This document shows, piece by piece, positions 31,640 to 64,000 of a stretch of 64,000 bases of DNA; within the stretch, counting starts at the first letter, position 1; each line of letters begins with the position of its first letter. Source of the stretch: Chrysoperla carnea (taxonomy: Eukaryota > Arthropoda > Insecta > Neuroptera > Chrysopidae); assembly GCF_905475395.1 (NCBI RefSeq), contig NC_058339.1, positions 36,961,172 to 37,025,171 of the forward strand. The letters run 5' to 3'. The position numbers were made by a program, and so were the translations under genes. The notes under the pieces are model-generated. The model saw nothing but the letters and a program-made list of their open reading frames with translations. It made no database searches and had not been told where the DNA came from.

Positions 31640-31955
31640 TAAAAATCCCCCACAAATTTTTCGCATACGGAACCCTAAACTCGCACTTGAAATATATATA
31701 AGAACACTTTCTATTCAATTCTATTTTTCATTAAAGCATTTTGAAGATCGTAGCCAATTTTTTAGTTTTTTTGGGTACGTAACCCTAAACTTGGACTTGA
31801 AACATAGCTAAGAACACTCTCCGTTAAATTACCTTTCAAAGGAAACCAAAAAATTAAAATCGGTTCATCCGTTTAGGGGCTACGCACAGACAGACTCACA
31901 CACACATAGCGGTCAAACTTATAACATCCCCTTTTTTTTTAGTTCGGGTGTTAAA
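31640..31955 (-). repeat. Dispersed repeat family B, copy 1
   Basis: Contains GGAACCCTAAACTCGCACTT and a variant GTAACCCTAAACTTGGACTT, TAAGAACACTCTCCGTTAAA, AATCGGTTCATCCGTTTAGG, an AGACAGACTCACACACAC tract, and ends near CCCCTTTTTTTTTAGTTCGG. The same blocks appear in the other orientation at 57700-58110. Internally it looks partly duplicated (two CCCTAAAC blocks 105 bp apart). Confidence 0.75.
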
Positions 31956-49680: not shown

Positions 49681-49700
49681 TTTGTTACAGGTGATTCAAA

Positions 49701-52700
49701 ATGAGTTCAACTCCAGATATAATGTCCTATGCGTATATTGATACCAAAGAAGAATTAAAAGAGAGACAAAAATTAGATGATGAATTATGGGAACGAGCTA
49801 AGACAGTAGCTAAGAAAGAATTACGTGAAGATGAAGAAACTAAAGAACACGCTTTAAGACATTTACGTGAATGGATCAACAAAAATACTGACATCGAAAA
49901 TTGTCGAACAGGTAATGTTGAAACTAGTGAGATTTGTAAAACATTAAATAGGAAATTTTTGTGTCAAATCATGGGTTTACCAAGGTTTTGACCTTAAGGT
50001 GGAGAGAAAAATGGGTTAAACTTATTTAATTGTATTGTAATGTTGTATTGTAACTCAAATTAGTTATAATTCTTCAAAGAGACGAAAACAGGTAAACATA
50101 TGGACGTTTCAAATTTTTATGCTCCGATAGACGTTGTTTTCCATCATAGAAAGGTTTAAATATTAAGTTTAAAGTTTTTGTTATTCAAGTGCCACTTAGT
50201 AAAATAGCATATATTTTCGTTTTTTTTTTTTATGATTATTTTTAATTTTTTGTTTTGTGGTTTTCAGATGATGGATTCTTATTAAGATTTTTACGTACCA
50301 AAAAATTCAGTTTACCAATGGCCGAACAAATGATCTTAAAATATATAAATTTACGTCAAAAAATGTCAAATTATTGTTGCAACTTAGATTATTTATCACC
50401 TTCAATTAATGAACTTATCAACGATGGGTAAGTAATTTTAAGTTTTGGTCAAGTGTAGACTAAATCGTAAAAATGTTCTATGGTTTGAATGAAGTATACT
50501 TTTCTCGCTTCTATTGTGAGTTTTTTGAGCTTCCTTTCTATTTGTTGACGAAATAATTAATTCTTTTCGAAGTGGATAATCGAAAATCCCATCTTTGAGC
50601 CTTTTTCACTATTTTTTATGATTTCATCCAGATTAGTGCTATTTTAAAAATAAAGTCAAATTCTGAATATCATCGGTGCATAATGTTTAAAAAATATTAT
50701 AGTTCCTTCGCTTCTGTTGTTTGTTTTTTGGGCTGCTTTTCCATTTATTGACACTTTATCGATATTTTTCGCAAGAGATCATATAATTTCTCTTGACACT
50801 ATGGCACTCTCTATCAAATTTTGAATAAAATAACGTTTGAAGAATACGATATGGTCTACTCTTTTTAAAGTTAATTCATAAATAATTCGATAACAAAAAT
50901 TTTCTAATATTTATTTATTTTTAGATTTGTTTTTGCATCACCGAATCGTGATGCTAAAGGGCGTCGCGTGGTTTTCACGATAATGAGTATGTTGTTAATT
51001 TAATATTCATGTAAATTTATCTTTTATTACTTACATTATAATTACAAGTTAATTATTAATTATAATGCAATTGTTTTCCAAATATTCGATTACGTTAATT
51101 TCCTTAAAAAAATGATTAATATAATAATTTAAAATTAAAATAAAAAAAAAAAATTAAAATTACCCTATAAAAATTAAAATTGCAGCGTTGTAATTAGAAA
51201 ACTGAATTAAAAATTACACTGCATATGCATCAAATTAAAAACATTAATGATAATCGAAGAGATGATGATGTAAATAAATATCGTATGCATGATTAAAAAG
51301 TAAACAACAAAAACATAAAGTAATGAATTAAAAATACTTTTCTTTTCACTGAAGTTAGTTGGGCTGAGTAAAGGAATTCGAGTTAAAAAGTCGATTACTC
51401 AACGGGGAATTCAAGGTCCTCATAAAATTCTCCCTTTTGAATTTGTTTGAAACATTTTGACATTATTTATGTCTAATAGATTATTTATTTATAGATAAAT
51501 TTTTGTCTTTTAGAAAATTTCAATCCGTACAAATATACAAGTGTTGACATGGCCAAAATCCATGCAATTACATATGAAACCTTATTGGATGATGAAAAAA
51601 CACAAATCTTTGGATTTACTCATATTGGAGATGGTGATGGCGCAAGTGCAGCTCATGTAACATTATGGAATTTTACAGATTTTGCAACATTATTTAAATG
51701 GGGCGAGGTATGACAAAAATTTTGTTTCCCAAACTTTTAGCCCACAACAAAATTAAACATTTTTGCAAGAAATAAAATACTCTTTTTATTTCTTACTAAA
51801 TTTCAAAGATGGAGTGGGTGGGGCGAAGGAATAAACCTAAAATTTTCTAGGTGTCAATTTTTAACTTCCCCGCCGACACCTTAATCAAGTGTTTGCACTC
51901 AAAACAATAATCACATCAAGTCAAGAGTTATTAAGGGTGGAACAGAAAGAAACAATGTGTAATTTAATGATCTCGAATTTAACTTCATTTTTGTCTCAAG
52001 AAAAATAAATATTTCAAAAAATTTCCTAATTTATTTTTAATTTTACAAAATTAAATTTGTTCCAGCAATCTTATCCAATGAGGCATAAAGAAGTTCATAT
52101 TGTTCATTTATTGCCCGCTTTCAAATTCGTTGTGGATTTCGCTCGGACTCGCGTTAGTTCAAAAATGAAAGATCGTTTGAGTGTAAGTATTATAGAAGAT
52201 AGCTCATTTTTATGGCACCAAAAAGGTGTTATGGCACCAGAAACATAAAAATTGTGTTCATTTTACAAATGAAAAACGGGTTTTGGGGACAAAAGAAAAA
52301 ACCTTTTTCTTGCAAAAATATGAGTTGCATATAAAAAAGTTAATTATAATAAGTGAAAACAAACAATTGTTCAAATACCCTGTACAGAAAGTGTCAAATG
52401 CCAGGGCTTGCATTATGTTTTTATAAATTAGAAGAGTTTAAAAAACCGACACAATTATGGCAGCTTTTCGGCTGCCATTTATTTGGTTTTCGAAAATTTC
52501 ATAAATTTTCGAAAGTATTTTCTAGAATCTGTTTTTGTTTTTTGAGGATGTATCACAAAGCTACTTGTTGAAGCTACCTGAAAATTTTCAACTCTCTATT
52601 TTTAATAGTTTTGGAGAAAATAGAAACCAAAGTTTTGCCCTAATTTGCGCCCTCTTGGGTAAACAGTGATATTTATGAAAAAAAGTTTCAAAAAAAAAAT

Positions 52701-53317
52701 TGTTTATTTCTTTATAAGGAACATTTTTCTACCTTTAAACTTTTGTTCTATCTGTATCTCTATTTTGTTCTATCAGCTTTATATTTCTTTTCATTTTCGA
52801 GTTGTTGTGTTGACAGACGTTCAGACAGACAGGCGGACAACCGGAATTTGGCTCGTAGCATCAATATTTTTTTGCGAAGGGGCCAAACTTTACTTAATAT
52901 ATGTTTCATAAATAGAGGGTACAAGACAAATTTGGGACTAAACTTATTATACCTTGGTATATATTTAATTTATACGTGGTATAACGATTATCGTTTTATT
53001 TTCTGTTTTAGAAATAAATATCATGTTTTTTTTTCTTCTAGTTACATAACGATTGGGCATCATTAGCAAAAAAAGTGGATCCAAATGTATTACCAAAAGA
53101 ATATGGTGGGAAAATACCAATGGCAACAATGATTGAAATGTTTAAAATGGAATTAGATTCAAAAAGAGAACGTTTATTAGCATTAGATAAAATGAAATTA
53201 TTAAGTGATCGTGGTATTATTTGTAGAAGAAATAAAAGTTATCATAGTACACCTAATGCAGAGCAATTCGGTATATCAAGTTTACCTGGAAGTTTTCGTC
53301 GACTTCAAGTTGATTAG
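49701..53317 (+). CDS. CRAL-TRIO (Sec14-like) lipid-binding protein, clavesin/alpha-TTP type, complete
   Basis: Soluble carrier of hydrophobic ligands; family members bind tocopherol, retinal or phosphoinositides. The ligand is unknown here. Coding exons: 49701-49911, 50268-50427, 50925-50986, 51514-51707, 52066-52182, 53042-53317. All are GT-AG and in phase, 339 aa. The CRAL-TRIO N-terminal domain covers about residues 10-105 (RQKLDDELWERA, then FLLRFLRTKKFSLPMAEQMILKYINLR). The lipid-binding domain covers about 110-290 (DAKGRRVVFTIM, IGDGDGASAAHVTLWNFTDF, SYPMRHKEVHIVHLLPAFKFV, DPNVLPKEYGGKIP). The C-terminal tail, about 50 residues, is basic and low in similarity. KEVHIVH and LPKEYGG are the diagnostic family motifs. 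The start is the first ATG after the acceptor at 49690, so the 5' UTR is split by an intron. The last intron (859 bp) contains a HINE-like insertion. I cannot assign orthology to a named subfamily. Confidence 0.92.
52350..52982 (-). mobile_element. HINE-like element, copy 11, in the last CRAL-TRIO intron
   Basis: On the minus strand it ends with the family 3' end (left edge AAGTGAAAACAAACAATTG) and starts with the family 5' end (right edge ATACCTTGGTATATATTTAA). It contains CGGCTGCCATTTATTTGG and GCGCCCTCTTGGGTAAACAG. It matches the variant 3' half of copy 2. It is antisense to the host gene and lies 59 bp upstream of the last exon. Confidence 0.85.
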
Positions 53318-54390
53318 TGTCTAGCTTATAATTAAACAAATTTTTTTTATTTTAATTGTTTTTTAGTTTAATTTTTCTTTTTTGTTTACATTTTTACGTT
53401 GATAAATATGTACACTGATTGGCAAAGAATAAACAAATGAAGTCGCATTTAAGATGAAGACACTTTCGTATTTTCGTTATTTATGGGAATGTCAATTTGA
53501 ATTTGATTAAGTATCTTTTAAAAAGTAACCCATCACCCTGTATGACTGCGCTAAATTCCAAATCGATATTCTTATAAATAACCAAATTATGAGGATGTCT
53601 TCATCTTAAATGCGGCACATTTTTTTTACATTAAGTACTATTGGAGAATCTAAATTGTTTTAATTATGATCGAATCTATAAAGTCGTTTTCAACTGTAAC
53701 TAAGATCGTTACTTGAATCTCGCTCCAACAATGCTGTTAAATTTCCCAAAACTTACATAATCAGTCCACGACCATTTTTTGTAAACAATTTTTTTCTTAA
53801 AATTTTGCATAATTGGGAATCTTTAGAAATTAAAGAATTAAAAATGAAAGCAAACTAGCAGCTAATTTCCAAAACATATTATAATAATTTTGTTACTACT
53901 GAAATCTACTGGCGTGGAAGAAAATGGGATTATACAGGACGTGACTGTCTTTTTAATCAAAACAATATCCATTTTGTAAGGAAAGTTAGTTTTTCCTTAG
54001 TTTGATTTATTAATTTTGAAATTATAAAGAAAAATACTAGCGGAGAGACTACGATTCGACTAAAAACTTTCAATTAAGTTTAAAGCTGTAGAAATTATAT
54101 TCCATTTTTTCTGCCTCTCAGTGTATATTGAAAATAGATCGAAATTATTATTGTTTGTTAAATTTTTTTCTTACCTTTTATAATTATTTTAATTAATTTT
54201 AAAATAAAGAAATTTTAGGTTTTAAAAATTCAGGGACAATTAAATATGTAAAATTATTTTTCTCTGAATCACTACAAAAAACACTTGGTATCTTTGAGTC
54301 ACAACGGTTAGGTAGGTCAATTTTTCATCGCAAATGTACATAATATTACCCCTGCGCACTTATTTCTTTTATAGAAATGCGGGTTTCTTA
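53318..54390. other. 3' flank of the CRAL-TRIO gene with a small foldback
   Basis: A 21-nt inverted pair (53442-53462 GTCGCATTTAAGATGAAGAC-, and 53596-53616) with one mismatch sits 125 bp after the stop codon. It may lie in the 3' UTR. The rest of the stretch is AT-rich with no feature I can support. Confidence 0.6.
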
Positions 54391-54860
54391 AAAATAATCG
54401 AAACAGTTCCTAATTATGGGAAGTTATTTATAAGTCAAAATATGAGGTGTATCAAAAAAAAAGTATCTTGATTATTCATTTTTGGATTTCTCGTATCAAA
54501 ATCAATTCGTGTCATAAATATTATTATTTATTACTGTTCGAATGTACAGAATATTCAGGAAACCTTTTTATACACCTGTTAAAAAAAATTTTAATTGTAA
54601 AATTGTGATCTTTTTTTATTTCATATTAAAATTGTTTTACAGTAAGGTTATTCGATTTTTGGTTTTATAAAATGATAATTTTAATAAAAGAAAACTTAAA
54701 AAAATATATAAAATAAAATTAAAAAAAAAAAAATAAATTTTCAATTTGTTATAAGAAGTTATTCATATTCAAAAAAAATTAATTTTTCATATATAAATAA
54801 AAATTCATTATAAATAACTAATTGTTTTTTTTCTTACCTTATTATTCTATCTAATCTATG
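54391..54860 (+). repeat. Duplicated block D, copy 1
   Basis: From TTCTTAAAAATAATCGAAAC through CCTAATTATGGGAAGTTA, TATAAGTCAAAATATGAGG, GTATCTTGATTATTCATTTT, TATCAAAATCAATTCGTGTC to ATAAAAATTCATTATAAAT, this matches 57045-57550 in the same order. Copy 2 starts inside the last codons of the repeat-exon ORF, so copy 1 may be the tail of an earlier, lost exon copy. Confidence 0.82.
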
Positions 54861-54892
54861 CAATTTTTCCTTGAAATTTTGGGTTAAAGTTT

Positions 54893-55367
54893 CCATAAAT
54901 TCAATAGAATTCAGCATTAACACATACTTAGGCAAATAAATCTATCATAAGTCTATGGCCAGGAGAGGGAAAGCTGCTCCCTCTCGGTATGCCCACGTGC
55001 CCAACGGATTACACATACTCAATTATTGTCTTGTAAACTTGAAGCACAAAACTGAAGCCGAAGTATAATCTTAAGTGAAACAATCTAAATGAAATTTGTA
55101 TCAAAAAATTTGCCTAACATTTATAAAGGCATGTGTATTGTAATCAAAAGCATATCTATTCATTATTTTTTGTACACTCAATATATATTTTATTCACAAG
55201 CAATGAGACATTTTAAAATTAGCATATTACTACATTTCCTTATAAAAATAATCGAATTTCATAATGAGACCTTAGTTAGAAATTTATTATACAACAGTTC
55301 AATTTAATATTTAAGTCAACCACCGCCGTGGTCAATTTGATAAACAATACGTAGAGACTGCTTAATT
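54893..55367 (+). promoter_or_regulatory. Duplicated promoter / 5' UTR block, copy 1
   Basis: Strongly similar to the DNA before the second exon copy at 60097. Shared blocks: AAATCTATCATAAGTC, CCAGGAGAGG, TACACTCAATATAT, AATGAGACATTTTAAAATTA, and a long conserved 5' leader ending CTGCTTAATT just before the ATG. A TATA-like TATAAAAA at 55241 lies 127 bp before the ATG, exactly the spacing seen in copy 2 (59970). The promoter role is inferred. Confidence 0.65.
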
Positions 55368-57065
55368 ATGTTAAAAAATACCTTTGTTTATGTGATCTAT
55401 AGTGCAATCATTTTTGAGTTAGCAATTAGTGCAACTTTGAAGAATGGCATTTTTAGTGGTACTGCTGTTTTGGATACAAGTGAAAGTTTAACAGAATTAA
55501 CAAATTTGGAATACAATGAAAAAGAAACAAGCACATTTGATTCAATAATCAAAAAAGAAATTCTTGCAAATTTAATGGGAATCAAAGGTGGAACGCATAC
55601 CAAACCTAGAATTGATGACGGTTTAGGTATTAAGAAAATAATTCCAACCATTCATCACCATCCAAAACCAGATGACTCAGGAATTAAGAAAGTAACTCCT
55701 ACTATTGAACATGATAACAAGCCTAGAGTTGATGACGATTTAGGAATTAAGACAAGAATTCCAACCATTCCACACGATCCAAAACCAGATGACTCAGGAA
55801 TTAAGAGAGTAACTCCTACTGAGGAACATGATAGTGATCCAAGAATCGATGACGATTTAGGAATTAAGACAAGAATTCCAACCATTCCACATGATCCAAA
55901 ACCAGAAGACTCAGGAGTTAAGAAAGTAACTCCTACTGACGAACATGATTGTGAGCCTAGCATTGATGATGATTTAGGAATTAAGAAAATAATTCCAAAC
56001 ATTCCACACGATCCAAAACCAGATGACTCAGGAATTAAGAGAGTAACTCCTACTGAGGAACATGATAGTGATCCAAGAATCGATGACGATTTAGGAATTA
56101 AGACAAGAATTCCAACCATTCCACATGATCCAAAACCAGAAGACTCAGGAGTTAAGAAAGTAACTCCTACTGACGAACATGATTGTGAGCCTAGCATTGA
56201 TGATGATTTAGGAATTAAGAAAATAATTCCAACTATTCCACACGATACAAAACCAGATGACTCAGGAATTAAGAGAATAACTCCTACTACTGAACATGAT
56301 AGTGATACTAGAATTGATGACGATTTAGGAATTAAGAAAATAATTCCAACCATTCCACACGATTCAAAACCAGATGACTCAGGAATTAAGAAAGTAACTC
56401 CTACTGTTGAACATGATAATGATCCAAGAATCGATGACGATTTAGGAATTAAAACAATAATTCCTACCATTCAACATGATCCAAAACCAGATGACTCAGG
56501 AATTAAGAAAGTAACTCCTACTAAGGAACATGATTGTGAGCCTAGTGTTGATGATGATTTAGGAATACAGAAAGTAATTCCAACCATTCAACACGATCCA
56601 AAACCAGATGACTCAGGAATTAAGAAAGTACCTCCTTCTATTGAACACGATAGCGAGCCTAGAATTGATGATGATTCAGGCAATAAGCACGTTACTCCCC
56701 CTTGTGAACAGGATAGCACTCCTAGAATGGATGATAATTCAGGAAATATGCACGTGCCACCTATTATTGAACATGATGATAAACCTAGAACTGATGATGA
56801 AGCAGGAATCAAGACAGTAACGCCTGCTATACATGAAACATTTTTTGGCCATGATCATAATATTTGGTTTGATCATTTAAAATTATTTTCAATTGTTTTT
56901 GCACGATCGCCATATAATAGAAATACCTTTTGTGGACAAGATTTAGAAAATTTTTTTAATGAATTGGCTGCATTTAAATTATGGGCTGTTCAAAGTAAAA
57001 GCTGCTTTACAATAGGTCATGATGGACTTTACAATATTCTTAAAAATAATTCAAACAGATCCTAA
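55368..57065 (+). CDS. Paralogous first exon of an NRF-6-like protein with expanded PDDSGIKKVTP repeats
   Basis: A 565-codon frame. It has a signal peptide (MLKNTFVYVIYSAIIFELAIS), a short spacer, then about 21 alternating modules from residue 77 to 485: an 18-residue type (KPDDSGIKKVTPTxEHDx) and a 21-residue type (xPRIDDDLGIKxxIPTIPHDP). After these comes the start of the NRF domain (WFDHLKLFSIVFAR, FCGQD, LAAFKLWAVQ). This matches the first exon of the gene at 60097. At the same place as that gene's donor there is GT (CAAA|GTAAAA, splice position 56994/56995), also phase 1, but a weaker donor. Read through, it stops after 22 more codons and lacks the rest of the NRF and acyltransferase domains. 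It is either an alternative first exon spliced to 61164 or a truncated duplicate secreted as a repeat protein. Confidence 0.8.
   Translation: MLKNTFVYVIYSAIIFELAISATLKNGIFSGTAVLDTSESLTELTNLEYNEKETSTFDSIIKKEILANLMGIKGGTHTKPRIDDGLGIKKIIPTIHHHPKPDDSGIKKVTPTIEHDNKPRVDDDLGIKTRIPTIPHDPKPDDSGIKRVTPTEEHDSDPRIDDDLGIKTRIPTIPHDPKPEDSGVKKVTPTDEHDCEPSIDDDLGIKKIIPNIPHDPKPDDSGIKRVTPTEEHDSDPRIDDDLGIKTRIPTIPHDPKPEDSGVKKVTPTDEHDCEPSIDDDLGIKKIIPTIPHDTKPDDSGIKRITPTTEHDSDTRIDDDLGIKKIIPTIPHDSKPDDSGIKKVTPTVEHDNDPRIDDDLGIKTIIPTIQHDPKPDDSGIKKVTPTKEHDCEPSVDDDLGIQKVIPTIQHDPKPDDSGIKKVPPSIEHDSEPRIDDDSGNKHVTPPCEQDSTPRMDDNSGNMHVPPIIEHDDKPRTDDEAGIKTVTPAIHETFFGHDHNIWFDHLKLFSIVFARSPYNRNTFCGQDLENFFNELAAFKLWAVQSKSCFTIGHDGLYNILKNNSNRS
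55600..56825 (+). repeat. Coding minisatellite, 117-bp double module
   Basis: Alternating 54-bp and 63-bp modules. A 234-bp higher-order unit (two double modules) is repeated almost exactly at 55782-56015 and 56016-56249, which points to recent unequal exchange or slippage. The frame is kept throughout, and the antisense strand is also open for long stretches because the modules lack reverse-strand stops. Confidence 0.92.
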
Positions 57066-57560
57066 TTATGGGAAGTTAATTATAAGTCAAAATATGAGGG
57101 AATTAAAAAAGGTATCTTGATTATTCATTTTGGAATTTTTCGTATCAAAATCAATTCGTGTCATAAATATATAACTATTTCTGTTATTTTCAAAATATTC
57201 CACAGATATTCGAATTTGATTTTGGATTAAATTTTTTGTGTTTACTACTTTACGACAAGGAAGTACAATTCGAGGTTTCATTATTAAATTATGTTCCAAT
57301 GGTCAGAATTTCAACTTGAATATTCAGAAAGATTTTTGAAACACCTCTTAAGAAAGAGAGTTTTAATTGTAATGTATTGTCATCTTTTTTTTTATTTCAT
57401 ATTAAAATTGTTTCAAACCACAGGTTATTCGATTGGTTTTATAAAATGAAATTTTTAATCAATTCTTTAAAAAAATTATGTATTCATATCAAAAGAAATT
57501 AATTTTTCATAAATAAAAATTCATTATAAATTACTGTTTGTTTTTTCAATTTTTTTTTTA
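57045..57560 (+). repeat. Duplicated block D, copy 2
   Basis: See copy 1 at 54391-54860. It begins within the 3' end of the repeat-exon frame (TTCTTAAAAATAATTC-AACAG-TCCTAATTATGGG) and continues through TCAAAATATGAGG and TATCAAAATCAATTCGTGTC. Confidence 0.82.
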
Positions 57561-57699
57561 CCTTTTTGGTCTTTTCGACGCAATATATTTTTCCTCGACC
57601 TGTTCTCAACTTTGAACAATTATCACCATTACTTTGAAAGTCATAGCTTGGGTAGATATATTTAATTAATTCTGTCAAGCGTTAATTTGTGAAATTCCA

Positions 57700-57752
57700 T
57701 GGACTGTTTTTAACCCCGTAATCAAATAAAGGGATATTATAAGAGACCGCTA

Positions 57753-57812
<60 letters not shown>

Positions 57813-58110
57813 TGTGTGTGTGTGTCGCTGTGTGTCTGTCTGTCTGTGGCATTGTTGTGCCTGAACGGATGAACCGATTTTGATATTTTTTGTTTCGTTT
57901 GAAAGGTAATTTAATCGAGAGTGTTCTTAGCTTTGTTTCAAATGCCTGTGTGCTATACCCCGAACAACTAAAAATAGGTCATTATCCTCAAAATTGGTTT
58001 GGAAAAACCTCTAAGGAAAAAGGTTATTTAATGGAGACTATTCTTATATATAGAGTATATTTCAAGTGCGAATTTAGGGTCCCAATTTTTAACACCATAA
58101 TTCACTTCAA
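57700..58110 (+). repeat. Dispersed repeat family B, copy 2, with (TG)n expansion
   Basis: In reverse orientation to 31640-31955: TTTTTAACCCCGTAATCAAA, a (TG)n tract at 57754-57841, CGGATGAACCGATTTTGA, AGAGTGTTCTTAGCTTTGTT, and TTTCAAGTGCGAATTTAGGG. The TG microsatellite occupies the position of the CACACACA tract in copy 1, so it grew from within the element. Confidence 0.78.
57754..57841. repeat. (TG)n microsatellite, about 88 bp
   Basis: Nearly pure TG dinucleotides with single interruptions (TATG, TCGC, TCTG). The 3' end grades into TGTCTGTCTGTC. Confidence 0.97.
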
Positions 58111-58310
58111 GAAACTCTGTAATTTACTAAATACATTTGGAAACCAAATCCAAATTTTAACTCGTTGACCAAGATTTTACGGAAATTATCCTGTAAAATT
58201 TAAAAGTTAGTTTGGTTCAAACAGTTCAGAAAAAGTTTTCCAAAAGTTTTTTTTGGGGGGGGGGGGGGGGTAAAAGGTGAGCCAAATTGGATAAAAAATT
58301 TCGTTGATAC

Positions 58311-58665
58311 AAAAATCGATCCGGTAAATGTGTCAGAAACAAATCGATGTATGCAGATTGTGATCCGAAAATAATCTTCAACTTAATGGGTCTGTACATT
58401 CGAGCGTTGAGTTTGTTTTGACGTGAGTCATGTTATATTAATCGCAGAGTTTTTTTACACAAAAAGCGACGAATATCGATGGTCTCAAGATAAAAAGTGA
58501 ACAGTCTCAAGATAAAACTCAATAAAAGACAAATGTCAAAAGCGCTTGAACAGCTAACTATTCAGTGGACATGCTTTTCATAAATTGCTGCAATTATAAG
58601 AACTATACTTATATATATTTTGTTAGTATAAATTTATGTGGAGAGATTCTCAATAGGGGCATTGT
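58311..58665 (+). repeat. Dispersed repeat family C, copy 3
   Basis: Shares AAATCGATC-AATGTGTCAGAA, TTTTTTACACAAAAAG, CGATGG-CTCAAGAT, AGCGCTTGAACAGCTAACTA, GCAATT-AGAAC and GAGATTCTCAA with the copies at 8570 and 18180. CTCAAGATAAAA is internally duplicated. It is preceded by a 16-nt poly-G run at 58255-58270. Confidence 0.65.
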
Positions 58666-59384
58666 ATATTACCCATTCTTTAATAATCTGTTAACCCCCA
58701 GTAAGACAGTTCTTAAAAATTAGCAAATTTTGAACTTGTTACTCAGGCCTTCCCCCTTAAATACATTAAATACCTACAAAATTTACTTACACAATTGAAG
58801 ACGTTAGAATTAAGAGTCATTTAGATCAATTTTATATCCTTGAGAAAGACGGAATGTATTTATTTATTGTTGATTAATTAATTATGAATAGATTTGTTTT
58901 ATAATAACAATGTAATACATAAAATTAATACTGGGTGAGAAAAACTTTATTACCAACAAAGTAGTTTAATCGACGGAAATTGCCATAGTGGATGTTCAGT
59001 TCATTGGATATTTCTGTACTACTGAATAAAAAAAAAGCCATCAAATATATACTAGCATCTGTGCTTGGTGGTTTGTATTCGAGCCACTGCCGCGAGCGTT
59101 TCCGCTTTTGACCAAAAGCAGGAAAAAAGCAGTTTGGCCAGCCTTAGAGGGTCAAATCAGACAATTTTTGGATGAAAGTTTCATAAATTAAATAGTATGT
59201 GGCGTAAACACATTCTTAGCTAAGTAAATCTATCATAAGTCCAAGTCCAGGAGAGGAAAAACTGCTCTCCTTCGACCTGCCAATGGCCTTAGTCTAAACG
59301 CATTACACATAGTCAAATATTGTCTTGCACGGGACACATAATTTTTTCGCAAGACCGAAGTGTTCAAGAGAATGCTCGCTGCAT

Positions 59385-59675
59385 CGCCTTCTTTTTTTAA
59401 CCGCCTTCAAACAAAAAAGGAGGGCTCCCGTGTGGTCCCATTTCATTTTGGTCCAGTTCTGACAACATCATCCATGAGAAAACCATTAAAGTCTCGAATT
59501 TGCATTAAGTATGCACGACAAGAGGACAAATAACTCAATACCACGCCAACCGATTTCGATTATTCTTTTTTTAGTGACAAATTAGTTAGTATAATTTATA
59601 TTCAATAGAAATCATAAAATAAAATAAACTTTTAACAAAAAGAAAACCGACTTCAGAAGAAAAACTTTTCCAAAA
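59385..59675. mobile_element. Insertion with AACCGCCTTCAAA / AAACCGACTTCAG ends
   Basis: Left part TTTTTTAACCGCCTTCAAAC, AAAGGAGGGCTCCCGTGTGG; right part AAAAGAAAACCGACTTCAGA. The ACCG-CTTCAAA...GGAGG head is one I know as part of a common insect dispersed repeat. It is absent from the matching place in promoter copy 1, so it was inserted after the duplication. Confidence 0.5.
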
Positions 59676-59683
59676 TAAATGAT

Positions 59684-59885
59684 TATGCACTCTCTAAAAA
59701 GTAAAAAAATAACGATAATATAATGTAGTTAAAATTATTGTAATTTTTTGAGTCGGTGTCAGCCAAGCTAATGTAGCAAACTGTTCTATCCGAGTTGTTT
59801 CCTTGGCTGACACCGACTCCAAAAATAACAATAATTTTAACTACATTATATTATCGTTATATTTTTGCTTTTTAGTGCATATTAT
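59684..59885. mobile_element. Foldback MITE in the promoter block of NRF-6-like gene
   Basis: Arms 59684-59767 and 59802-59885 are inverted copies with few mismatches (left end GTCGGTGTCAGCCAA, right start TTGGCTGACACCGACTCC), around a 34-nt loop. Outer ends are ATGCAC and GTGCAT. Absent from promoter copy 1. Confidence 0.85.
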
Positions 59886-60096
59886 AACTATACATTCTTT
59901 TTTATACACTCAATATATTTTTAATAAGAAACAATGAGACATTTTAAAATTAGCATTATTGCATTTCCTTATAAAAATCATAGAATTTCATAAGGAGACC
60001 TTAGTTAGAAATTTATTATACAACAGTTCAATTTAACATTTAAGTCAATCACCGCAGCGGTCAATGAGATAAACAATACGGAGAGACTGCTTAATT

Positions 60097-63000
60097 ATGT
60101 TAAAAAATATCTTTGTTTATGTGATCTATAGTGCAATAATTTTTGAACTAGCAATTAGTGCAACTTTGAAAAATGACAATTTAAGCGGTGCTGCTGTTTT
60201 GGATACAATTGAAAATTTAACAGAAATAACAAATTTGGATTACAATGAAAACGAAACAAGCACATTTGAATCAATAATCAAAGAAGAAATTCTTTCAAAT
60301 TTAAAGGATATAAAAGATGGGACGGGTGTCAAACAACCCAGTATCGATGAAATACAGAAAGTAACTCCAACTAATCAACACGATCCAAAACCAGATGATT
60401 CAGGAATTAAGAAAGTACCTCCTTCTATTGAACATGATAGTGATCCTAGAATTGATGATGATTCAGGAATTAAGAAAGTTACTCCTATTATTGAACATGA
60501 GAGCGATCCTAGAATTGATAATGATTCAGGGATTATGCACATACCACCGACTATTGAACATGATGAGAAACCTAGAATTGATGATGATCCAGGAATCAAG
60601 ACAGTAACACCTTCTATCGATTACGATGTAACGCGTTCGTTGAATCGAACAACGGTTATGAATGTTGATGTTCCAGAAGTAATTGATAAACCAATACATG
60701 AAACATTTTCTGGCAAGGATCAAAATATTTGGTTTGATCATATAAAATTATTTTCAATTGTTTTTGCACGATCGCAATTACATAAAAATACATTTTGTGG
60801 TCAAGATTCAGAGAAATTTTTAAACGATTTGGCTGCATTTAAATTATGGGCTGTTCAAAGTAAGTGCTGCTTTTCAATATTTATTCTGAAATCCTGATAA
60901 AACATACTTTGATTACTCTCAGGACTTCATACATTATTACAAAGGAAACAAAAGTGTTCCTGTTCTTGACATTTCGCAAATCGAACTAGAACTTTTTCAA
61001 TTAGCGATTAAAATAAAAAATCTGTCCATTACGATTTACGCCAGGTCACGATCATGAAGACGCGTGCTACCCTTGTATTGCTTTTAAAAATATGTTGTTA
61101 TCTTTTGGGTTTCAAATTTTGCGATTAGTCAACCGCTGATAATTATTTGAACTTTTATTTCAGTGTATGACGCATCAACAAAAATTCCTGCTGGAGTATG
61201 GGATGGTGCAATATTTGATTTTGGAAATTTTCATAAATGTTTAAGAATTAATGCATACGAAAATGAAGAAGCTATCAATGGGAAATATTGTTTAATTGAG
61301 ATGGAATCAAAATTAAAAAATTCATCATGGTTAAAACAGGATCCGTTCACAATTAATTATGATCCATTAGAATCAGCTTGGGAAAAAATTCATGTAAATA
61401 AGTTTATTTTAATTAACTTATTAATCAGTGATTGATTAGAATTGGAAAAATTTATTTAAAATTCTAATTTTGCGTAATATATGCAGAAAACAATAATTCA
61501 TTCTTTGTAAAGAATGTTGCTTGATCAAGTTTTTTTTTTGCATTATTTTAAATAAATTTATTTTTAAGTTTCCAGAAAAATTATATTACACTAAGTAAAA
61601 TTTGGGCGCATTAATTTTTTGGATAATCAAAATTTAAGTTGAAAAAACAAATTTTAATTTGTTTAATTTTCGGACTAAATCTATCTGATAGTTCGTTCAT
61701 AGCTTTTAGTTTAACTAATTGGCAAAAATAATCATTAGATTGATATTATTCTCTTAAAAATATAACATAGGTGCCCAAAAAGAGTTAATAGTAAGTTTCG
61801 ACATTCTTTTAATCTTTCTTTGCCCAGAAATTTTAGAAATTTGAATCTGTAGTAGAATCGAATTAAAAAAAAAAAATTCCAAGACACAGAACGCTTCTGG
61901 TTCGTTAAGAAATTTCTAAGAAATTAAGACTCGATGTCGAAAAGAAACTCAATATTTTTTGAAGTGAAAACTTCTTTAGCCGCGTTGAGCGGTTGTATTA
62001 TAATAGTTTTTAGTAGGGGTAAAAACGTGATATACGTACATACCATGTTGAAACAATGGGCGCAGTCAATACCTGGATGGGAGGCCGCTTGAGCATACAG
62101 TGCTGTTGCCTTTTTATTTTTTATAATAGTTTTTTATATTCATTGTATATCGTATACATATAAATTTATTTTCCGTATGTTTACGGCTGCAAACCTCGAA
62201 AGGTAGGGATGGATTGATTTTAAATTCATCATCAAACTCGGCAACTTTTGTTGAAGTTATTTTCTGATTGGTTAACTACAAAACGAGATATTAGCGATAA
62301 TAGAATAAAATGGTCCATACCCTGTTTATTTATCATCCTAAGTATAGAATTGTTTTTGAAAATATAAAAGATAATTTTTCGTATTCTTGTTTAAGTATCA
62401 AGGCGACAAACGAAAAGTTCGTAGAGACACGTTCACTTTGGCATTATGTTTGCCTTCATCCTGTACTGAGGAGGATATTGTAAATGGTATATCCACAGAT
62501 ACCTTACCGCAACCCGACCAGGATAACTTAGACATATCTGTGAGAATATCTCGATATGGTTGTACAGTCAAAGAAGAAAAATTACCGACTACCGGTGATT
62601 ATATATTTTGGTAAGTTTTAGAAATCATAACATTGTTTGAAGATTCATCAAATTGAATTATTTTCAGGGCCATAACATTAGGTATGCTAATATTAATTAT
62701 AATATCTACAATTTGGCTGCATAACGAAGAAAAAAAATTAGAATGTGAATTAAAAATTACAACATTTTGGCACAAAGTTGCAAAATCATTTTCAATTATT
62801 GAGAATTTTAATGCTTTAACAAAATACAAACATACCAAGCCATGTTTCAACATTTTACATGGTGTGAAATTTCTGTGTATGGGTTTGATAATTCATGGCC
62901 ATCGTTTGTTGCACTATTTTGGAAAACCGTTACAGAACAATGAAGTTGTGGAAGATGTAAGTTTTATTGATGCCATATGGCGAATGCCAAGCTGGGTAGA

Positions 63001-64000
63001 AAATGAATTTATGTAAAGTGAGTTGCAGAATTTTTCCTGGTTTAAAAGAATGCACTTGGTCGAGAGTAGGAGAAGAATGTACCAAAATTTTTAGTTCCTA
63101 GACAAATTTCTGCTACTTCAAAAGAAATTTAAATTTTCTACCAGCTTATGATAATGACCAAAATATTACTTACCTTTTTTCTTTCAGACATATATTTATA
63201 AAGGCTACATGGTTATTCATAACGGCTTAATTGTGTTGGACGCCTTCTTTTTAATGACTGGATTCATAATGTCTTATAGTTATTTGGAATCGTTTGAAAA
63301 ACGTAAAACAAAATTTTTACAGCTACCGTACTCGATCCTATTACGATTTTTGCGATTGATACCGGCTTATATGTATGTAGTATTTTTTATTGCCACAGTA
63401 TGGGCAAGATTAGGTAGTGGACCACTTTGGAACACAGTGGCATTAATTGAAACTGAAAAATGCTCCCAAACTTGGTGGACAAGTTTATTATTGATAAATA
63501 ATTATGTTGAACCAGAAAATATGGTAAGAATTTTGGATCGTTTGGGTACTTTGTAAATTGAATATGTAAGATATTATTTTAGCCTAAAGTTTGTTCATCT
63601 ATTTTAGTGTATGATGACGACATGGTATTTGTCCTGTGACTTCCATATGTTTATTATTGGGACCGTAATTATGTTTATTATATCAAAAACTAGAAAAATT
63701 GGATATACAATTTTAGGGCTTTGTACGATTATATCGTTGGTGATACCATTTGTTATTGTTTACAAAGATGGAACTAATCCTTTACTAACTATCTTCCCTG
63801 GGTAAGTTATTGATTGCATTGGTTAAATTTGAGATTCTTGATATTAAATGTATAAACAAGAATTCGCCACATTAAAGATTTGGAAGTCAATTTGGTTTTC
63901 TTTAATTAACAAATTAAATTTTTTTCAGCTTAACCGATGTTAGAGAAAATGAAGTATTCATTAATTACTACATAAAAACACATATGCGAATGTTTCCATA
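60097..64000 (+). CDS. NRF-6-like acyltransferase-3 membrane protein, 3'-partial (runs off the window)
   Basis: Member of the nose-resistant-to-fluoxetine family: a secreted N-terminal NRF domain joined to a multi-pass acyltransferase-3 domain, thought to act in lipid or sterol handling. Exons: 60097-60859, 61164-61393, 62396-62610, 62668-62956, 63188-63523, 63608-63801, 63929-64000 and beyond. All junctions are GT-AG and in phase, about 699 codons so far. Order: signal peptide; about five PDDSGIKKVPP modules (residues 85-185); NRF domain across exons 1-3 (FCGQD, LAAFKLWAVQ, MYDASTKIPAGVWDGAIFDF, and LALCLPSSCTEEDI, the family's hallmark); TM1 (LGMLILIIISTIWL); LHGVKFLCMGLIIHGHRLL, the conserved AT3 segment, where K replaces the usual R but the H remains; RFLRLIPAYMYVVFF; WYLSCDFHMFIIG; and further TMs. 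Exon 7 is cut by the window end. The first exon has an upstream paralogue at 55368. Confidence 0.93.

Follow-up and report, generated by a model that had tools for sequence, protein, structure and literature searches.

Does one NRF-6-like acyltransferase gene of Chrysoperla carnea begin with either of two first exons, and would the choice between them set the length of an extracellular stalk? The question arises in a window of 64,000 nucleotides (the whole stretch analyzed, G000:C3:36961172-37025171, in a genome of 559 Mb and 337 contigs), where an initial annotation described two paralogous first exons, here called E1a and E1b, ahead of a shared exon 2. The structure is real, its origin is clear, and the mechanism is known from other families; the stalk-length switch is a candidate reading. 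We give roughly even odds (about 50%) that E1a is a real, perhaps minor, alternative first exon with a predicted splice to exon 2.

The gene was modeled on sequence extended beyond the window end, and coordinates above 64000 are in this extended numbering. Its exons are the following.

55368-56994 (+): E1a, upstream first exon, with putative signal peptide, leader, about 21 stalk modules and the first part of the NRF domain; 542 codons plus one base, from the open frame and the alignment to E1b
60097-60859 (+): E1b, downstream first exon, with a leader as in E1a, about 5 stalk modules and the first part of the NRF domain
61164-61393 (+): exon 2, the sole NRF exon-2 match in the locus (Pfam NRF, 6.5e-13)
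62396-62610 (+): exon 3, end of the NRF domain
62668-62956 (+): exon 4; its border with exon 3 falls inside the first hydrophobic segment that follows the putative signal peptide
63188-63523 (+): exon 5, inside the acyltransferase-3 domain
63608-63801 (+): exon 6, inside the acyltransferase-3 domain
63929-64067 (+): exon 7, crossing the window end
64133-64325 (+): exon 8, extended coordinates
64601-64743 (+): exon 9, extended coordinates
64831-64935 (+): exon 10, extended coordinates, ending in the stop

In the model, E1b and nine further exons give an unbroken NRF-6-like protein of 868 residues. All introns are GT-AG, and the stop codon (64933-64935) lies past the window end. The start of exon 2 at 61164 is directly preceded by TTTATTTCAG. 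If E1a is swapped in for E1b, the frame remains open and the product has 1156 residues. The proposal of a shared exon 2 in a compatible frame therefore holds, as each isoform reads as one unbroken frame. Isoform b carries the NRF N-terminal domain (PF20146, 2.7e-28, profile positions 1-118 of 121) and Acyl_transf_3 (PF01757, 1.1e-19). Hydropathy, with overlapping stretches merged, gives eight hydrophobic stretches after the signal peptide; the putative signal peptide itself corresponds, by hydropathy only, to a hydrophobic segment within residues 1-24. With NRF and Acyl_transf_3 domains and several hydrophobic segments, the predicted gene is an NRF-6-like acyltransferase.

The two first exons are paralogs, as the initial annotation held: their coordinates, leader, NRF start and phase-1 GT were all confirmed, and the E1b protein matches E1a at 4.3e-58, a similarity well past what chance would give. 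No relative of the E1b protein was found outside the locus at E ≤ 0.001 in the 559-Mb genome (8 of 8 matches lie in the locus). Ungapped alignments cover the first 75 codons (59 of 75 residues identical; nonsynonymous divergence, dN, 0.098; synonymous divergence, dS, 0.189) and the last 55 codons ahead of the donor (43 of 55 residues identical). TATAAAA stands 127 bp ahead of the ATG in both exons, at 55241 for E1a and 59970 for E1b, which is the spacing originally claimed. The GT lies at 56995 in E1a and 60860 in E1b, and either exon length leaves phase 1. Unspliced, the E1a frame runs 23 codons past the donor to a stop at 57063-57065, in agreement with the end at 57065 given before. The elements flanking the two exons are listed here.

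54874-55367 (+): upstream region, TATA box (55241) and 5′ leader of E1a, collinear with 59163-59327 and 59884-60096; TATA to ATG, 127 bp
59163-60096 (+): upstream region, TATA box (59970) and 5′ leader of E1b, broken by an insertion at about 59328-59883 with a palindromic element
56995-57000 (+): upstream donor, AAA|GTAAAA, phase 1
60860-60865 (+): downstream donor, GTAAGT, phase 1
57001-57065 (+): read-through tail of the unspliced E1a frame, with its stop at 57063-57065; contains the duplication junction (about 57015-57036)

The exons differ most visibly in their stalk. Our count returned the 21 modules of E1a (19 pieces listed, two of them double) and the five of E1b (four listed and a diverged first one recognized by eye). 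The claimed difference in stalk length is likewise present, with 521 residues before the first NRF-domain cysteine in E1a versus 233 in E1b. The last five E1a modules align one-to-one with the E1b modules, and the extra E1a modules are 117-bp dimers, in a tandem array with a 117-bp period and 9.3 units. The coding units 55848-55964 and 56082-56198, each of 117 bp, have the same sequence, and a comparison of 55731-55964 with 55965-56198 shows 4 differences in 234 sites. Units this similar indicate that growth of the array continued recently. With identical 117-bp units, the E1a array may also differ in length among individuals. A 26-residue piece of E1b is missing from E1a; all length differences between the exons keep the frame. 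The stalk is acidic (net charge −37 in E1a, −12 in E1b) and rich in D, P, I, K and T, with four cysteines in E1a and none in E1b. It is probably extended in shape. Inside the E1a array, the ratio of nonsynonymous to synonymous variation (pN/pS) is 0.61, with 13 silent variants (8.0 expected), 28 replacement variants (30.9 expected) and no stop variants (2.1 expected), a hint of selection. E1a has no match at E ≤ 1 among PDB sequences, and Pfam gave only matches below its curated cut-offs (DUF3913 and PD40). No relatives were found in viral contigs, and Rfam gave nothing above gathering score in the window.

The origin of the pair can be read from two collinear units, unit 1 (54385 to about 57014, at present some 2.6 kb long) and unit 2 (57037-60879).

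54385-54556 and 57037-57200: collinear pair, 85% identity
54549-54688 and 57318-57462: collinear pair, 80% identity
54760-54830 and 57481-57546: collinear pair, 87% identity
54874-55033 and 59163-59327: collinear pair
55152-55871 and 59884-60603: collinear pair
56506-57014 and 60356-60879: collinear pair, overlapping the preceding one in the repeat array and so outside the chained alignment
54385-54830 (+): T′, intergenic start of unit 1, a copy of 57037-57546
57037-57546 (+): T, intergenic start of unit 2; searched against the genome, 57037-57560 matched the two units and nothing else
57570-59150 (+): insertion in unit 2, of high-copy repeats (4876 candidate genome places at first look, 40 of them scored)

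Besides the exon, the duplication takes in intergenic DNA (54385-54830 and 57037-57546). Across four duplicated pieces, 444 of 502 aligned noncoding sites are identical, with 10 indels. In the alignment, E1a/E1b similarity stops about 20 nt past the donor, and T begins about 22 nt later. This order marks the event as a tandem duplication from the intergenic region to about 20 nt into intron 1, in which the predicted promoter, the exon and the predicted donor were copied and exon 2 was not. A transposon origin of T was rejected on the genome search, which skips very common words and matched only the two units. Part of the insertion at 57570-59150 also resembles 31669-31904 of the window. Unit 2 carries a second insertion, at about 59328-59883; its palindromic element upstream of E1b (59740-59880) looks by eye like a miniature inverted-repeat transposable element (MITE).

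No second exon 2 for E1a was found in 57065-61164, either among the at least 56 NRF matches or among the at least 23 exon-2 matches; apart from the one at 61164, the 22 others of these 23 reach no more than 51% identity and are located on different contigs or about 32 Mb off. Because the duplication copied no exon 2, a full protein from E1a would require that E1b be skipped and the upstream donor be spliced to the shared exon 2 at 61164. The upstream copy thus appears to be laid out as an alternative first exon. After the duplication, the array in E1a would have grown from about 5 to about 21 modules, as the one-to-one match of the last five modules and the 117-bp units suggest. Promoter choice would then yield a membrane protein with either the shorter or the longer stretch before the first NRF cysteine, and the weak upstream donor points to a long isoform that would be minor or tissue-limited. 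That the gene has a promoter-selected switch between a short and a long extracellular stalk, in which a coding repeat that is still expanding tunes the long form, is a tentative suggestion.

Whether the E1a frame is open by use or by luck was examined by neutral simulation. Noncoding divergence is 0.126 per site, with 10 indels per 502 sites, and E1a is open over 542 codons. The simulation applied the measured per-site values of 0.0628 for substitutions and 0.01 for indels, and one indel in four was assumed to be in frame. With indels, the whole of E1a stayed open in 0 of 4000 runs, the leader with five modules and the NRF part in a fraction of 0.0005, and the leader with the NRF part in 0.0095. 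At 0.03 substitutions per site the corresponding values were 0, 0.0005 and 0.02. Because the runs begin from present-day E1a instead of its ancestor, and because the array postdates the duplication, the case for use is weaker than the whole-exon figure implies. Within these limits, the frame looks protected and would be unlikely to remain open if unused. The upstream exon was probably in use at least until recently.

The donor was compared with those of the family. The survey covered 30 NRF loci (L012-L041 of at least 56 matches, the gene itself included) and about 1.5 kb upstream of each; all its donors are predictions. The junction WAxQ|M-DAS corresponds to the NRF family's own intron, in phase 1. 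The exon-1-end pattern was present in 17 loci, 16 of them paralogs (16 of the 29 other loci scanned), and 13 loci were without it; at one of the 16 (L036), a second pattern detected no exon-2 start. All 16 paralog donors have A at −1. The U1 pairing energy of the E1a donor is −3.2, equal to or better than that of 6 of the 16 when pairing is not forced into register, and the gene's own exon-2 donor is weaker (−1.7). On a matrix built from 25 donors (9 of the gene and 16 of paralogs, so that training donors score favourably), E1a scores 1.7 and E1b 8.2, with 2 of the 25 below E1a. No better donor was found near the end of E1a (56900-57125). The predicted upstream donor is weak, yet inside the range that the NRF family seems to use.

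Several results weigh against use of E1a. Its donor is indeed the weaker one, as initially noted, and the state is derived: GTAAAA has lost +5G and +6T relative to E1b. At position +5, where E1a has A, 14 of the 16 paralog donors have G, two have T and none has A. Of all 3184 GT sites in the window, 3.6% score no lower than the E1a donor. A transcript from the upstream promoter would cross 4.2 kb with eight AATAAA sites, by estimate about the number expected from base composition. When indels are left out of the simulation, neutral survival rises to 0.004 for the whole exon, 0.08 for the leader with five modules and the NRF part, and 0.18 for the leader with the NRF part; at 0.03 substitutions per site, the same three parts give 0.065, 0.30 and 0.43. 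The dN/dS ratio, which blends both copies, is 0.65 (0.38-1.15) over 220 codons, with 0.079 of bootstraps at 1 or above, a range that includes neutrality; the NRF part alone gives 0.78.

The changes in both of the last two donor bases, together with a dN/dS not clearly below 1, fit a dying or silent duplicate, used until recently or never used and open by luck. Promoter and leader (118 of 128 sites identical) show no stronger preservation than intergenic T (124 of 135), which means that conservation of the promoter does not exceed that of the surrounding DNA and that the copy is simply fairly young. However, there is no stop or frameshift across 1626 nt. We regard a dying or silent copy as rather unlikely, and it is the rival that survives best. 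An unlikely alternative is a separate short gene, in which the donor is mostly ignored and the frame ends at 57065, giving a 565-residue secreted repeat protein with half an NRF domain. Its leader and frame are intact, the donor is weak, the frame does continue to 57065, and AATAAA occurs at 57512 and ATTAAA at 57102, 57226, 57283 and 57401. However, the exon retains the WAVQ|GT junction as well as the first part of the split NRF domain with its cysteine, features that are sensible only with exon 2. The tail past the donor also crosses the duplication junction into formerly intergenic DNA, and 23 open codons there would occur by chance in an estimated 1 in 7 cases at this composition. Tandem copies can in general be misassembled, but these differ at 58 of 502 noncoding sites, by two insertions and by the 26-residue gap, in a 94-Mb contig, which makes an assembly artefact or collapsed haplotypes highly improbable.

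PF20146 has at least 56 exon matches in the genome. Clusters of NRF exon matches at G000:C5:32405569-32478492 and G000:C2:38812415-38857641 suggest tandem arrays of NRF-6-like genes. Three paralogs, taken from the 22 other exon-2 matches, were checked about 6 kb upstream. In two of them, both also among the 16 surveyed, one exon-1 end is present, and its 51 open codons contain no stalk; in the third, nothing in that stretch matched the exon-1-end pattern. As far as these three paralogs tell, neither the stalk nor the duplicated exon appears to be general in NRF genes. Elsewhere in the window, 517-2325 on the minus strand holds exons resembling those of a gene for a DHHC palmitoyltransferase; Pfam matched 517-906 weakly, below its curated cut-off, and gave nothing for two other pieces. 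A multi-exon gene upstream of the NRF-6-like gene and on its strand (49695-53317) looks SEC14-like by eye, and three pieces of it gave no Pfam match.

Passages on NRF-6 and NDG-4 (nose resistant to fluoxetine) describe a role in worm uptake or distribution of lipids and xenobiotics (PMC3919970; PMC7379565). The present gene shares their NRF and acyltransferase-3 domains and several hydrophobic segments, and differs in the long acidic repeat stalk of its first exon. A krill study reports that missense changes in NRF-6 are enriched in its extracellular part, which lends some interest to a variable extracellular length. Among the titles listed in searches of open-licence papers, none concerns such a gene structure in the NRF-6 family. 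If E1a is used, the isoforms would differ mainly in spacer length, and the role of an extracellular stalk in an NRF-6 protein would become a testable question.

The layout itself is well known, from UGT1A, Gr39a and hydra. In Drosophila hydra, as excerpted in PMC9013439, initial exons were repeatedly duplicated beside a transposon; there the gene is listed among cases of untranslated-region exons, and the excerpt mentions no repeat stalk. Drosophila Gr39a, as described in PMC2204066, has large 5′ exons with a donor, each spliced singly to shared small exons, and its duplicated exons are under relaxed selection. The NRF-6-like locus likewise has a large 5′ exon with a donor and a shared downstream exon block. 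It belongs to another family, and isoform expression, reported for Gr39a, is a prediction here. UGT1A (UGT1), according to passages in PMC9013439 and PMC3325998, has a tandem series of homologous first exons with separate promoters, and shared downstream exons. Homologous tandem first exons also occur here, with phase-compatible donors (that of E1a of low strength), one shared exon block, and in both exons a TATA box at −127 and a leader, the promoters being predicted. In contrast to UGT1A, there are two copies only, the variable part differs mainly in the length of the repeat stalk, and splicing and promoter use are predictions. The locus can thus be seen as a variable-first-exon system at the two-copy stage, with the breakpoint, the promoter copy and the donor all still readable.

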